NCBI RefSeq assembly: GCF_014252015.1
Contig: NZ_CP059206.1
Location: 1-64,000 of the forward strand
DNA: 64,000 nt
Reading direction: 5' to 3'
DNA from: Blattabacterium cuenoti
GTDB taxonomy: Bacteria; Bacteroidota; Bacteroidia; Flavobacteriales; Blattabacteriaceae
Shown here one piece after another: positions 7,448 through 25,233 of the stretch (within the stretch, counting starts at the first letter, position 1; each line of letters opens with the position of its first letter). The translations under genes and the position numbers were made by a program. The notes under the pieces are model-generated. The model saw only the letters and a program-made list of their open reading frames with translations, had not been told where the DNA came from and ran no database searches.

Positions 7448-8980
7448 ATGAAAATTCTTTCTTTAAATCAAATTAGAAAAGCCGATCAATATTGTATTGA
7501 TTCCGAATTAATTTCTCCTATTCAATTAATGGAAAGAGCAGCTAAAAGTTGTTTTGATTGGATTATTCATAATAAATATTTTAAAATTAGAAAAATTCCA
7601 TTTATAGTATTAGTCGGAAATGGAAATAATGGAGGAGATGGACTGTATTTATCTTATATGTTACATTTATACGGAGCAATAGTTTCAGTATATGCAGTTA
7701 ACATTTCTAATCATTTTTCAAATGAGTTTTTAATCAATAAACATAAAATATTACAACATAAAATAACTTTTAAAACAATTTATAAAGGGGAAAAATTTCC
7801 TTTTTTAAATCAAAAAAGTTATTTGATTGATGCCATTTTTGGAATAGGATTCAATCGTGAAATTAATCAATATTGGAAATCTTTTTTTCACTATATTAAC
7901 GAAAAAAAATTTCTAGCAGTTATATCTATAGATATCCCATCTGGACTATTTATGGAAAAAAATAATGAAGATTTTAAAGGGATAATAAAAGCTACACACA
8001 CTTTAACATTTCAAGTTCCAAAATTACCTTTTTTATTACCAAAATACGCAGATTATGTTGGAAAATGGTATTTAATAAACATTGGATGGAAAAATGATTT
8101 TTTTCGTAAAATACAAACTCAAAATTTTTATGTAGATAATGTATATATTCATGCTATATATAAAAAAAAAGTAAGAAAAAAATTTTCACATAAAGGAAAT
8201 TATGGACATGGAATAATTATAGGAGGAAGTTTCGGTATGATAGGATCTATTATTCTTTCTGCCACAGCTAGTTTTCGTACTGGAATAGGAAAATTAAGTG
8301 TATATGTTCCTTATTGTGGTTATCAAATTATACAAAATGCACTTCCAGAAGCCATTGTAAATACAGACGAAAAAAAATATTGTATAAGTAATATTGTTAT
8401 TTCTAATGATAATATAAATGCAATAGGAATAGGAATGGGTATGGGAATTCATCCCAAAACTGTATACGCTCTAGAATCTTTTTTACTAAAAAAAAAAAAA
8501 ATCCCTATGGTGATAGATGCAGATGCTATAAATATCTTATCATATCAATTACAATTATTGGATCTTCTTCCGGAAGGAACTATTCTTACTCCACATCCAA
8601 AAGAATTTCAGAAATTATGTAAAAAATTATGGAAAAATGATTATGAAAAATTATATCTATTAAAAGAAATGTCTACAAAATATAAAATTTTTATTGTATT
8701 AAAAGGTGCATATTCCGTTATTTCAACACCTAATGGAAATCTTTATTTTAATAGTACAGGAAATGCAGGAATGGCAACAGCCGGTAGTGGAGATGTTCTC
8801 ACTGGAATGATAATGAGTTTGTTATCTCAAGGATATTCTCCGGAAGAATCATGTATAATGGGAGTTTATTTACATGGATTATCAGGAGATATTGCTTCAA
8901 AAAAATTAAGTGAAGAAGCTATCATAGCTAATGATATTATTAATCATATAGGGGAAGCTTTTTTAAAAATTAAGGCTTGA
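7448..8980 (+). CDS. nnr: Bifunctional NAD(P)H-hydrate epimerase / ADP-dependent dehydratase
   Basis: This metabolite-repair enzyme epimerises and dehydrates damaged NAD(P)H hydrates back to NAD(P)H. The 510-residue product is the full two-domain form. The N-terminal YjeF epimerase domain (about 1-215) has VGNGNNGGDGLYLSYML. The C-terminal ribokinase-like dehydratase domain (about 230-505) has the nucleotide-binding NAGMATAGSGDVLTGMI and VIDADAINIL. The frame contains a 14-nt A run at 8488-8501 that is read in frame as four lysines, a slippage-prone site as long as the one that breaks truA. The 3' end overlaps the convergent lnt gene by 11 nt. Confidence 0.93.
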   Translation: MKILSLNQIRKADQYCIDSELISPIQLMERAAKSCFDWIIHNKYFKIRKIPFIVLVGNGNNGGDGLYLSYMLHLYGAIVSVYAVNISNHFSNEFLINKHKILQHKITFKTIYKGEKFPFLNQKSYLIDAIFGIGFNREINQYWKSFFHYINEKKFLAVISIDIPSGLFMEKNNEDFKGIIKATHTLTFQVPKLPFLLPKYADYVGKWYLINIGWKNDFFRKIQTQNFYVDNVYIHAIYKKKVRKKFSHKGNYGHGIIIGGSFGMIGSIILSATASFRTGIGKLSVYVPYCGYQIIQNALPEAIVNTDEKKYCISNIVISNDNINAIGIGMGMGIHPKTVYALESFLLKKKKIPMVIDADAINILSYQLQLLDLLPEGTILTPHPKEFQKLCKKLWKNDYEKLYLLKEMSTKYKIFIVLKGAYSVISTPNGNLYFNSTGNAGMATAGSGDVLTGMIMSLLSQGYSPEESCIMGVYLHGLSGDIASKKLSEEAIIANDIINHIGEAFLKIKA

Positions 8981-10637: not shown

Positions 10638-10652
10638 ATTTTAATAATTAAG

Positions 10653-11060
10653 TGGAGCTGGCGGGATTCGAACCCGCGTCCAAACAAGTAGCATAAAAGA
10701 TTTCTACATATTTATCCAAAAAAAAATTTGATCCATTTTTATCCAAGTTTTGGATCCAGAATAAAAACTTAGATTCAAAATATAATTTCAGAAAACTTAA
10801 GAATCATTTGTTTTCCTATCCTTAATATTTTTGAGTATCTCTATATCAGAAATTATAAGGAAAAATTTCTGAGAGATATTTTGCTTCTGCATTTTTTGCA
10901 GACTCAGGCTATAATGTTTTAAACATTAATTAAGCAGCAAAAGCGTATTCTTTTTCGCCATTTATATGTTATGTAACGCTTTATTTTCGTGTAATACCTT
11001 ACGTGACACGATATGCTTTCTTTTATTACTTATCTTGCTGTCAAATCCAAAATCAGCCCC
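10653..11060 (-). ncRNA. ssrA: tmRNA (transfer-messenger RNA)
   Basis: tmRNA rescues stalled ribosomes and tags the truncated product. Read on the minus strand, the 5' end GGGGCTG (from 11060) pairs with CAGCTCC near 10654-10660, with one G-U pair, forming the tRNA-like acceptor. A T-arm with GGTTCGAATCC-type sequence precedes it, the discriminator is A at 10653, and CCA is not encoded. The 5' portion continues GATTTTGGATTTGACAGC, typical of tmRNA. The tag reading frame runs GGC GAA AAA GAA TAC GCT TTT GCT GCT TAA (10959 down to 10930), giving GEKEYAFAA, a variant of the flavobacterial GENNYALAA. Length is about 408 nt in one piece, so it is not a permuted two-piece tmRNA. Confidence 0.95.
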
Positions 11061-21529: not shown

Positions 21530-22717
21530 ATGAAAGAATTAGAAAAAGACTTTTTTCAATATCAAACTCAAATCAATCCATCATCCATGAATATTATGGT
21601 AAATCATGGTGAAGGAAGTTATATTTATGGAACAGATGGTAAAAAATATCTAGATTTTGTAGCAGGTGTTTCCGTAAACGTATTAGGACATGGAAATAAA
21701 AAAATAAAAGAAGCTATAAAAAAACAAGTAGATAAATATTTGCATACTATGGTATATGGAGAATTCATACAAAATCCTTGTGTTATTCTTTGTAAGAAAA
21801 TATCAGAAAATATTCCATATCCACTTACTACTACTTATTTGGTTAATTCTGGAACAGAAGCTGTAGAAGGAGCTTTAAAATTAGCTAAATGTTATACAGG
21901 AAGAGAAGAAATAATATCTTGTAAATGGTCTTATCATGGAAGTACCCTTGGGTCTATAAGTGTTATGGGAAATCAAGATTATAAAAGGTCTTTTAGACCT
22001 TTATTACCTTTAGTTAAATTTATAACGTTTAATAATATAAAAGAATTAATTTCTTCTATAACAGAAAAAACTGCATGTGTTATATTAGAAACTATTCAAT
22101 GTTCTGCTGGAATTATATTACCTGATGATTCGTTTTTAAAAGAAATAAGAAAACAGTGCGATCAAAAAAAAGCTTTAATGATACTTGACGAAATCCAAAC
22201 TGGATTTGGAAGAACAGGAAAACTTTTTGCTTTTGAACATTATGAAGTCTTTCCTGATATATTAATAATGGGAAAAGGAATGGGAGGTGGAATGCCGATA
22301 AGTGCTTTTGTTTCATCTCACAAAATTATGAGGACTTTTATTGATATCGTTCCTTTAGGACATTTAACTACTTTTGGAGGAAATGCAGTTTCTGCTTCTG
22401 CATCTTTAGCTACTTTAAATCAACTTATCGATTCTGATATAATGGAACAAGTACCACTGAAAGAAAAGTGGATTAGGGAACATTTAGTTCATAATGAAAT
22501 CAAAAATATTCATGGAAAAGGTCTTCTTTTATCTTTTGAATTAAAAAATAAAGAAATAGTGGAAAAGGTTTTAAAAAATTGTATAAAAAAAGGATTAATA
22601 TTATTTCGTTTTTTATTTCACAGTAACTTTTTGCGTATATCTCCTCCATTAACTATCACAAAAAAGGAAATCCAAAAAGGATGTTCTATTATTATTGAAA
22701 GTTTAAATGAACTTTAA
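21530..22717 (+). CDS. Class III PLP-dependent aminotransferase (ArgD-like)
   Basis: Class III aminotransferases move amino groups from omega-amino donors such as acetylornithine. The 395-residue product is complete: NHGEGSYIYGTDGKKYLDFVAGVSVNVLGH near the N-terminus, VNSGTEAVEGALKLA for phosphate binding, and ILDEIQTGFGRTGKLFAFEH. The PLP lysine is K249 in MGKGMGGGMPISAF. This matches the flavobacterial gene usually found next to the OstA-like gene, variously annotated as acetylornithine or aspartate-family aminotransferase. The substrate is therefore unsettled. truA begins 14 nt downstream. Confidence 0.87.
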   Translation: MKELEKDFFQYQTQINPSSMNIMVNHGEGSYIYGTDGKKYLDFVAGVSVNVLGHGNKKIKEAIKKQVDKYLHTMVYGEFIQNPCVILCKKISENIPYPLTTTYLVNSGTEAVEGALKLAKCYTGREEIISCKWSYHGSTLGSISVMGNQDYKRSFRPLLPLVKFITFNNIKELISSITEKTACVILETIQCSAGIILPDDSFLKEIRKQCDQKKALMILDEIQTGFGRTGKLFAFEHYEVFPDILIMGKGMGGGMPISAFVSSHKIMRTFIDIVPLGHLTTFGGNAVSASASLATLNQLIDSDIMEQVPLKEKWIREHLVHNEIKNIHGKGLLLSFELKNKEIVEKVLKNCIKKGLILFRFLFHSNFLRISPPLTITKKEIQKGCSIIIESLNEL

Positions 22718-22731
22718 AAAAAATAATGTAA

Positions 22732-23479
22732 TTGAGATTTTTTATTGAATTAGCTTATAATGGTAAACATTTTTTTGGATGGCAAATTCAAAAAAAAGTA
22801 AGTACAGTAGAAGAAAAATTAGAATATTGTTTATCAAAATTATTAAAAACTCCTATAAATATAGTAGGAGCTGGTAGAACCGATAAAGGTGTTCATGCTG
22901 AACAAATGTTTGCTCATTTTGACTATGAAAAAGAAATTAGCAAAAATTTTGTTGATAAACTAAACATTTTTTTACCTAATTCTATTAGAGTATTTAATAT
23001 TTTTCCAGTAAAAAAAAATATTCATGCAAGATTTGACGCTATAAAACGAACATATAAATATTACTTAACACGCGATAAAAATCCATTTAATCAAGATTTC
23101 TCTTGGTACTGTTTTTATCCACTGAATATTCAAAAAATGAATGCAGCTTCAATAAAACTCATGGAGTATGAAGATTTTAGTTCCTTTTGTAAAAAAAAAA
23201 AAAATTAATGAAAAGGAAAATAATATATGTAAAATTTATTATGCTTATTGGTCAGTGACCGATAATATTTTATGTTTTACTATTGAAGCTAATCGATTTC
23301 TTAGATCTATGGTTAGGGCTATTATAGGGACGCTGGTTGATGTGGGAAGAAATAAAATTAGTATCAATGAATTTGTAAAAATCATAGAATTAAAAAATGC
23401 TGATTTTTGCAAATCTATAGCTCCTGCATGTGGTTTATTTCTGACCAAGATTCTCTATCCAGAAGATATTTTTTTATGA
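22732..23479 (+). pseudogene. truA: tRNA pseudouridine(38-40) synthase TruA, frameshifted at a poly(A) tract
   Basis: TruA makes pseudouridine at positions 38-40 of tRNA anticodon arms. The first part (22732-23208, TTG start, 158 residues) has the catalytic Asp51 in VGAGRTDKGVHAEQ. It ends at a TAA just after a run of 14 A (23191-23204). The remainder continues in the +1 frame to 23479, with EANRFLRSMVRAIIGTLVDVG. Removing one A joins both parts into about 248 residues, the normal TruA length, without loss. Both halves are well conserved, so the break is recent, is a sequencing error, or is tolerated through polymerase slippage on the A run. The stop TGA overlaps the ATG of the following ABC gene. 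Confidence 0.88.
23191..23204 (+). repeat. A14 homopolymer at the truA frameshift
   Basis: Fourteen consecutive A. Read in the upstream frame they run into AAT TAA. With 13 A the frame continues as KKKKINEKENN into the C-terminal half of TruA. Confidence 0.97.
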
Positions 23480-25233
23480 AAGAAAATTTGAATAAACAAA
23501 AGTCATCTTTAAAACAGCTTATTATAATTAGCCTAAATTATAAACTGATATTGATATCAACAATTATAACTTCTATATTAATTTCCTTTATTTCCGCGTA
23601 TCGTCCTAAATTAATACAAAAGGCTATAGATATTCATATCCTTTATAAAGATTTTTTAGGATTGAAAAATATATTGGCGTTGATAATTATGCTTCTTTTT
23701 TTAGAAAGTATATTTCATTTTATTTTATTATATCTATCTAATAGATTAGCTCAAAATGTAATTGAAAAAATTAGAATTCTTTTATTTGAAAAATTATTAC
23801 ATTTTAAAAATTCTTTTTTTAATAAAACTCCAATAGGAAAATTAGTATCTTATTCTGTATCAGATATAGAAACTATAACTGTAATATTTAATGATGGAAT
23901 TTTACTTGTTTCTGGAGATGTTTTAAGAATTATTATGATTATTGTCATGATGTATACAGTACATCAAAAATTATCTTTTATAGTTTTTCTAACTATTCCT
24001 TTTATGTATATTATTACTCGTTTTTTTCAAAAAACATTAAAAAAAACGTTTCATGAAGAACGAATTCAAACTTCACGTTTAAACAGTTTCTTACAAGAGA
24101 ATATTATAGGGATGTCTATTATTCAACTTTTTCATAAAGAAAAAGAAGAATACTTAAAATTTAAATCAATCAATTATAAGTTAATGAATGCTCATTTTAA
24201 AACCATTTTTTATTTTTCTATTTTTTTTCCTATAGTAGAAATAATTTCTGCAATAACAATAAGTATTATCATATTTTATGGAGGATTTCATGCTATTGAA
24301 ATAGGAAATGTTAAACCGGGTCAAATTATTGCTTTTATTTTTTTTATTTATCTTCTTTTTCGTCCTATGCGACAAATAGCTGACAGATTTAATATTATAC
24401 AAAGAGGGATAGCTGGAATAGAACGTATATTTTCCATATTAAATTCTGAAGAAATTATTATTAATAGAGGAAATTTACGTTTTAATAAATTAAAGGGACA
24501 TATTGTATTTAATAATGTTCATTTCTCTTATAGAGAGAATGAAATGGTATTGAATGGAGTTTCTTTTGAAATCAAACCAGGAGAAAAAGTTGCTATAGTA
24601 GGATCCACGGGTTCTGGAAAATCTACAATTACTCATTTAATTTCTAGATTATATGAAATAAAAAAAGGAAATATTTGGATTGATGGACACTCTATTCAAG
24701 ATATAGAGCTTAAAAATTTAAGATCTCATATAAGAGTGGTAACACAAGATACTTTTTTATTTAATGATTCTATAATTAATAATATTACTTTGGGGGATCC
24801 GTCTATTAGCATAAATAAAATAGAAAATATGGCAAAAAAAATAGGAATACATAATTTTATTACATCTTTACCTAACGGATATAAATTCATAGTAAAAGAA
24901 AGAGGTAATTTACTCTCTCTTGGGGAAAAACAATTGATTTCTTTTTTGAGAGTTCAAATGCATCCTTATTCTGTGCTTATATTAGACGAAGCCACCGCAT
25001 CCTTAAATAAGGAATTAGAAAAAATGATTTATCATGCTACAGATCTTTTAACTAAACACAAAACTTCCATAATTATTACCCACCGTCTTTCCACATTAGA
25101 AAATGCCGATAAAATATTAGCTATTGATAAAGGATCTATTGTAGAAAAAGGAACTCATAAAGAACTAATTCAATCAAATGGATATTATGCTGGATTATAC
25201 AAAGAATCTTTGAAAAAAAAAATTAACAATTGA
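23476..25233 (+). CDS. ABC exporter, fused permease/ATPase (MsbA/MdlB type)
   Basis: This is a half-transporter that would dimerise in the inner membrane; lipid A/phospholipid or multidrug export are the usual roles. The 585-residue product has about six membrane helices (about 20-310). The nucleotide-binding domain has Walker A GSTGSGKST (about 376-384), a Q-loop VTQDTF, signature LSLGEKQ in place of LSGGQ, Walker B VLILDEATASLN, and the His switch IITHRLST. I chose the ATG at 23476, which overlaps the truA stop, because the frame upstream (from 23407) lies inside truA. The 3' end overlaps the convergent SurA-like gene by 11 nt. Next to LPS transport genes an MsbA-like role is plausible but unproven. 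Confidence 0.85.
   Translation: MKENLNKQKSSLKQLIIISLNYKLILISTIITSILISFISAYRPKLIQKAIDIHILYKDFLGLKNILALIIMLLFLESIFHFILLYLSNRLAQNVIEKIRILLFEKLLHFKNSFFNKTPIGKLVSYSVSDIETITVIFNDGILLVSGDVLRIIMIIVMMYTVHQKLSFIVFLTIPFMYIITRFFQKTLKKTFHEERIQTSRLNSFLQENIIGMSIIQLFHKEKEEYLKFKSINYKLMNAHFKTIFYFSIFFPIVEIISAITISIIIFYGGFHAIEIGNVKPGQIIAFIFFIYLLFRPMRQIADRFNIIQRGIAGIERIFSILNSEEIIINRGNLRFNKLKGHIVFNNVHFSYRENEMVLNGVSFEIKPGEKVAIVGSTGSGKSTITHLISRLYEIKKGNIWIDGHSIQDIELKNLRSHIRVVTQDTFLFNDSIINNITLGDPSISINKIENMAKKIGIHNFITSLPNGYKFIVKERGNLLSLGEKQLISFLRVQMHPYSVLILDEATASLNKELEKMIYHATDLLTKHKTSIIITHRLSTLENADKILAIDKGSIVEKGTHKELIQSNGYYAGLYKESLKKKINN

Follow-up and report, generated by a model that had tools for sequence, protein, structure and literature searches.

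Conserved genes of Blattabacterium are broken by frameshifts at long runs of A, and the reading that we favour, at a probability of about 0.57, is that non-programmed slippage on poly(A) keeps these broken genes working and that the truA gene described below would still be used and be rescued in this way. Comparison of the genomes demonstrates the break in truA, its position at the A-run, the recurrence of breaks at homologous runs, their inheritance within clades and purifying selection downstream of them. The truA break is one example of a genus-wide pattern. Blattabacterium is the fat-body symbiont of cockroaches, and the stretch of DNA analysed here, called the window throughout, comprises the first 64,000 nucleotides of a 629,662-bp single-contig genome of this genus (G000).

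truA is split at a run of 14 A

The upstream truA open frame (22732..23208, + strand) has a TTG start codon and encodes 158 aa that constitute the first half of TruA, the synthase of tRNA pseudouridine 38-40, and contain the GRTDKGVHA motif; it matches PF01416 and TIGR00071 and, among PDB entries, 1dj0 and 2nqp (E. coli TruA). The Asp codon of GRTDKG was read from the sequence at 22882..22884 (+), and we take its product to be the catalytic Asp of TruA. In the accessible part of a study on P. putida TruA, D70 is named as the catalytic residue (PMC9481147). The second half of TruA is encoded by a downstream open frame (23168..23479, +), which is +1 relative to the upstream frame, has no stops, matches TIGR00071 and ends at a TGA (23477-23479). 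The frame changes at an A14 run (23191..23204, +; context tgt-A14-ttaatg), and the TAA that ends the upstream frame (23206..23208, +) lies immediately 3' of it.

The sequence-only reading of the window had described truA as split by a one-base frameshift in a 14-A run, with an upstream frame that ends within 4 nt of the run and two conserved halves that give a 248-residue enzyme once one A is removed. All of this was borne out: the second half stands in the +1 frame, the run ends at 23204 and the stop codon begins at 23206, and the 745 nt between 22732 and 23476 become 248 codons when one base is taken away. The TIGR00071 profile of 228 positions is matched at positions 3-148 by the upstream half (E 1e-38) and at positions 144-228 by the downstream half (E 3e-14), and it is on these two hits in the correct order that the identification as TruA is based; the curated TruA cut-off of 142.85 bits is not reached in a single reading frame, with the upstream half alone scoring 132.9 bits. 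A gene that is rescued by slippage is expected to carry one indel in an A-run of at least about nine and to be open otherwise; the window's truA has this structure and probably belongs among such genes.

Two other accounts of this structure were rejected. One is plain decay, as neither half has a stop or a second indel and every genome of the family has truA. The other is internal re-initiation: an ATG at 23168 precedes the run in the downstream frame, but its 103-aa product would comprise neither the first domain nor the Asp motif.

Both neighbouring genes are intact, an argD-like aminotransferase gene upstream (21530..22717, +) and an msbA-like ABC transporter gene downstream (23476..25233, +). 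The start codon of the latter overlaps the truA stop in an ATGA that was read from the sequence (23476..23479, +), and early stops in truA may for this reason reduce translation of the msbA-like gene.

The 64-kb window contains 89 runs of A or T of at least nine, the longest being two runs of 14. The second A14 run (8488..8501, +) is in frame in a gene for an NAD(P)H-hydrate dehydratase/epimerase (7448-8980) and provides an internal control; slippage at this run should yield shifted messages from an intact gene. The window also holds a tmRNA gene (10652-11060, −) with the tag GEKEYAFAA.

The truA tract in related genomes

The TruA profile was matched in all 68 genomes of the family, nine of which are about 200 kb in size. 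Within the genus, truA is in one frame in 45 of 49 genomes and frameshifted in the remaining four (G000, G027, G037 and G033). The run of the window's genome has one base too many for the frame, and G027 and G037, which are sisters (98/95 support), have A10 where A11 keeps the frame, at the identical position in the lysine-rich linker and with open downstream halves. In G033 the break is at an A7 in the C-terminal part. From F(S)xF to the next Trp, the linker is 17 to 24 residues long in the 44 of 45 intact genomes that were measurable by script, which suggests that lysines are cheaply gained or lost there.

A comparison of the tract in sister strains had been proposed as a check. The other 14 genomes of the subclade have runs from A2 to A16 with truA in frame in each of them, and the break is private to G000. 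The window has A14-TTAATG where relatives have A10-G-AA-C-TAATG, and this looks like the result of two substitutions that joined the A-runs and one added base, the order of these changes being a reconstruction.

A-run breaks elsewhere in the genome and in the genus

The genome to which the window belongs has 23 runs of at least 12 A. About 19 of these are inside genes, 14 in frame and five at a frameshift, as judged by a reading of the open frames and not gene by gene; the run at 605173, close to where an open frame ends, is ambiguous. About two thirds of the runs would be expected out of frame if their lengths were not under selection, which argues that the frame is still selected for, although imperfectly kept. 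Besides truA, the broken genes are topA (A12), miaA (A12), murF (A13) and a cysJ-like gene (A14).

Over the 49 genomes, 30 frameshifts were found in these five genes, 14 in topA and four each in truA, miaA (G000, G004, G017 and G021), murF (G000, G003, G026 and G038) and the cysJ-like gene (G000, G027, G029 and G033). The genes were picked as broken in G000, and the other 25 breaks were found as split profile matches regardless of A-runs; the 30 breaks partly share ancestry and are thus not 30 independent events. A script measured 28 of the 30 junctions, and topA of G024 (A12) and truA of G033 (A7) were read by eye. An A-run of at least nine is present at 27 of the 28 junctions, and in 25 of the 28 no A-run of the gene is longer than the one at the junction. 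The single exception to the presence of such a run is topA of G044, in which the stop precedes the run. In rpoB, which served as a long control gene, no break was found in any of the 49 genomes.

Not included in these counts are miaA of G031 (an assembly gap), single-domain cysJ matches in G006, G008, G009, G014, G026, G037 and G038, and cysJ of G003, G015, G023 and G046, which is split by the profile yet forms one open frame. The cysJ-like gene is matched by its reductase part only in G006, G008, G009, G014, G026, G027, G037 and G038, and the flavodoxin part seems to have been lost, the DNA having been inspected in G026, G027 and G037. In G031 miaA (L201 741-1025), the A117 followed by N is an assembly gap and no biological tract; on one strand of the same genome, stretches of 13 A were hit 113 times.

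topA is broken repeatedly at one homologous run

Of 46 genomes, 13 have a frameshift in topA at one and the same homologous A-run, and G017 has one at a different run. All 13 genomes fall within one clade of 24; none of the 22 genomes outside this clade has the break, and there the run is shorter or interrupted, with A11 at most. The in-frame site encodes SKKKKIVQNL, with A13 in G022, G035, G036 and G042. The run is one base short in 11 genomes and two bases short in G013 and G016. At least seven changes are required to explain the pattern on a tree built from the downstream part of topA together with the truA region, so that the state either switches in both directions or has originated more than once. 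The three genomes G031, G029 and G005 group together with 100/100 support, and in each of them topA is one base short; in G005, a G replaces the last A of the run (A11-G). In G004 the run is likewise interrupted by a substitution (A10-G-A) and the break persists.

Two genomes show what may follow such a break. In G046 (L183), the sister of G020, in which topA is broken, the break at A12 is followed a few codons later by a compensating second indel, which restores the frame with changed residues; this suggests either that the gene was important during its time out of frame or that the interval between the two changes was very short. In G044 (L186), a substitution 5' of the C-A11 run at the SKKKK site has created a TGA stop together with an ATG in the downstream frame (an ATGA overlap), and topA may now consist of two coupled open frames. 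Slippage at the run cannot mend this copy, since the stop precedes the run. Re-initiation in place of slippage was rejected for topA in general, as G044 is the only broken copy in which a new ATG overlaps the stop.

In G038 and G039 no match to topA was obtained, and G011 has a weak match to the C-terminal part (C1:335998-336249); the gene is thus missing or nearly so in three of 49 genomes. In G011, an open frame of 5950 residues is reported.

An assembly error in the length of the run, with 13 A or a mixture in the real genome and an intact truA, is unlikely, but it has to be taken seriously for the window's own copy. Its break is private, the A14 ranks with the genome's longest runs and is long enough for an assembly miscount, which counts against rescue, and the miaA sequence of G031 is a clear poly(A) assembly artefact. 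However, runs of 14 and 15 A stand in frame within genes of the same genome, and breaks of this class are common to clades at runs down to A10, which argues that real breaks are common in the genus. As a general cause, sequencing error was rejected, given that the topA breaks track supported clades and persist in G005 and G004, where substitutions interrupt the run; a general assembly fault was rejected on the grounds that rpoB is intact throughout.

Selection downstream of the breaks

Downstream of the topA break, dN/dS between the pairs of G031, G029 and G005 is 0.17-0.22 (upper CI 0.24-0.29; 625-627 codons; dS 0.35-0.38). For intact topA pairs the values are 0.18-0.20 in the three that were bootstrapped and 0.13-0.41 in all 15 that were computed. 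About 200 differences separate each pair of the three broken copies in this region, and neither a stop nor a frame-breaking indel is among them. As the topA breaks are shared by a clade and dN/dS is normal, neither assembly error nor fresh gene death can readily explain them.

Between truA of G027 and that of G037, dN/dS on the two sides of the shared break is 0.24 (CI 0.13-0.44) upstream and 0.29 (CI 0.14-0.56) downstream, and three intact pairs have 0.13-0.30 downstream. When compared with the intact G026, the downstream part has a rather high value of 0.45 (CI 0.19-0.99) in G027 and one of 0.26 in G037. As judged by this test, which with 76 codons is a weak one, a broken-frame truA has been kept in both genomes. 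An inherited break with continued purifying selection downstream was accordingly found for topA of G029, G005 and G031 and for truA of G027 and G037, and not for the window's copy, in which selection after the break is not measurable because the break is private to G000. Compared with the intact G035, the window's truA has a dN/dS of 0.19 upstream and 0.16 downstream (CI 0.07-0.32), values like those of the intact pair G034/G035 (0.20 upstream, 0.13 downstream). Such normal values would be expected equally under rescue, under assembly error and if the break is very recent.

The sequence-only reading had left the choice between rescue by slippage and fresh loss. For the genus, the inherited breaks, the purifying selection downstream of them and the retention of truA throughout the family favour rescue; for the window's own truA, the claim holds less firmly, as the break is private and may be very recent or reflect a miscounted run. 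A true and very recent loss, by which truA is dead in this lineage but too young to have decayed, is in our opinion distinctly unlikely. It would agree with the private break and with the conserved look that null alleles have while young; gene loss also occurs in obligate symbionts, and the genomes in which topA has no match or a weak one suggest that some of the broken genes may be on their way out, which counts against rescue. However, truA is retained in every family genome, the break shared by G027 and G037 has persisted since the two diverged, with neither stops nor a clear relaxation, and five genes of G000 would have to be dying simultaneously.

How the broken genes may be read

According to the slippage model, a one-base insertion would have arisen in the A-run of the lysine-rich linker of TruA, which tolerates changes in length. 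RNA polymerase would slip in both directions on the long run and thereby bring a fraction of the truA transcripts back into frame, from which full-length TruA would be made, while the product of the remaining transcripts would end just after the run. The same rescue would apply to topA, miaA, murF and the cysJ-like gene of G000 and to many of the homologues in related Blattabacterium. It is from the genomic comparison that we infer heterogeneous transcripts, slippage of the polymerase rather than of the ribosome as the main route, and rescue of the window's truA.

Runs of AAA codons are slippery for ribosomes, and rescue could instead be achieved mainly by ribosomal frameshifting on AAA lysine codons. 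In agreement with this idea, the accessible part of a study on E. coli and P. putida reports that −1 frameshifting rises in both species without TruA (PMC9481147). However, the breaks run in both directions: the window's truA needs a shift of +1 and truA of G027 and G037 one of −1 (−1 base in G000 and +1 base in G027/G037 being what restores the frame), and topA, which is one or two bases short, needs both kinds in different genomes. A single one-directional shift of the ribosome would therefore not suffice for all of them, and the precedents in symbionts are transcriptional, as far as the accessible text of a review goes (PMC5009743). We consider ribosomal shifting very unlikely as the main route, though it could add to slippage of the polymerase. 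Hardly to be credited is a fidelity loop, conceivable since the anticodon arm of tRNA is modified by TruA as well as by MiaA and since both genes are broken at A-runs in G000. In such a loop, leaky A-run expression would be a standing, inherited state; when TruA or MiaA runs short, ribosomes would slip more often on the AAA runs of these same genes and so restore the enzymes, as a self-correcting circuit set up by mutation and drift.

If the broken genes work through slippage, the consequences extend beyond truA. Annotation pipelines may label such genes as dead, and the number of genes counted as lost from cockroach symbionts would then be too high. Blattabacterium, with its dozens of genomes, would also be a natural experiment on the persistence of slippage-mended frameshifts. 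The topA series is a stronger story than truA, and it makes the lifetime of slippage-dependent genes directly testable: with its run broken, compensated in G046 and superseded by a new start codon in G044, this one gene would present several stages.

Comparison with known systems

Poly(A) frameshifts with rescue by slippage have reportedly been described in Buchnera and Blochmannia, in work by Tamas in 2008 and by Wernegreen in 2010. The phenomenon itself is thus already known, and truA of Blattabacterium would add a further case. Slippage-rescued poly(A) frameshifts in Blattabacterium were not found in the accessible parts of the literature covered (including PMC3017870, PMC4389277, PMC3971599, PMC6128925, PMC4567559, PMC6039017 and PMC9603385), a body of work from which subscription papers are mostly absent, so that a report elsewhere is possible.

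Within the genus itself, the accessible part of one report lists pseudogenes of Blattabacterium that include metG, gltX, dnaN, atpG and others (PMC6039017). Here, as in the present study, conserved genes are concerned, and they are called pseudogenes; in that part of the report, however, the lesions are not given. metG, gltX, dnaN and atpG would be natural candidates for A-run frameshifts. Walczuchella, a flavobacterial symbiont of scale insects, belongs to the same broad bacterial group, and its authors think that pseudogenes with homopolymer frameshifts may function; in contrast to our comparison, that work concerns one genome, and its accessible text contains no test of inheritance or selection that we could see (PMC3971599).

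The closest parallels are the endosymbionts of aphids and ants, in which, according to the accessible part of a review, slippage at long poly(A) tracts leaves 12-50% of transcripts frame-corrected (PMC5009743), and in Blochmannia vafer homopolymer frameshifts affect eight genes, again as given in the accessible text (PMC3017870). Buchnera and Blochmannia resemble Blattabacterium in being AT-rich obligate insect symbionts in which a gene has a single A-run indel and is otherwise conserved, and in which breaks are shared between species. They differ in that the present case concerns Bacteroidota in cockroaches and is described at the level of DNA, and in that here a single run of one gene, topA, is broken in 13 of 46 genomes.
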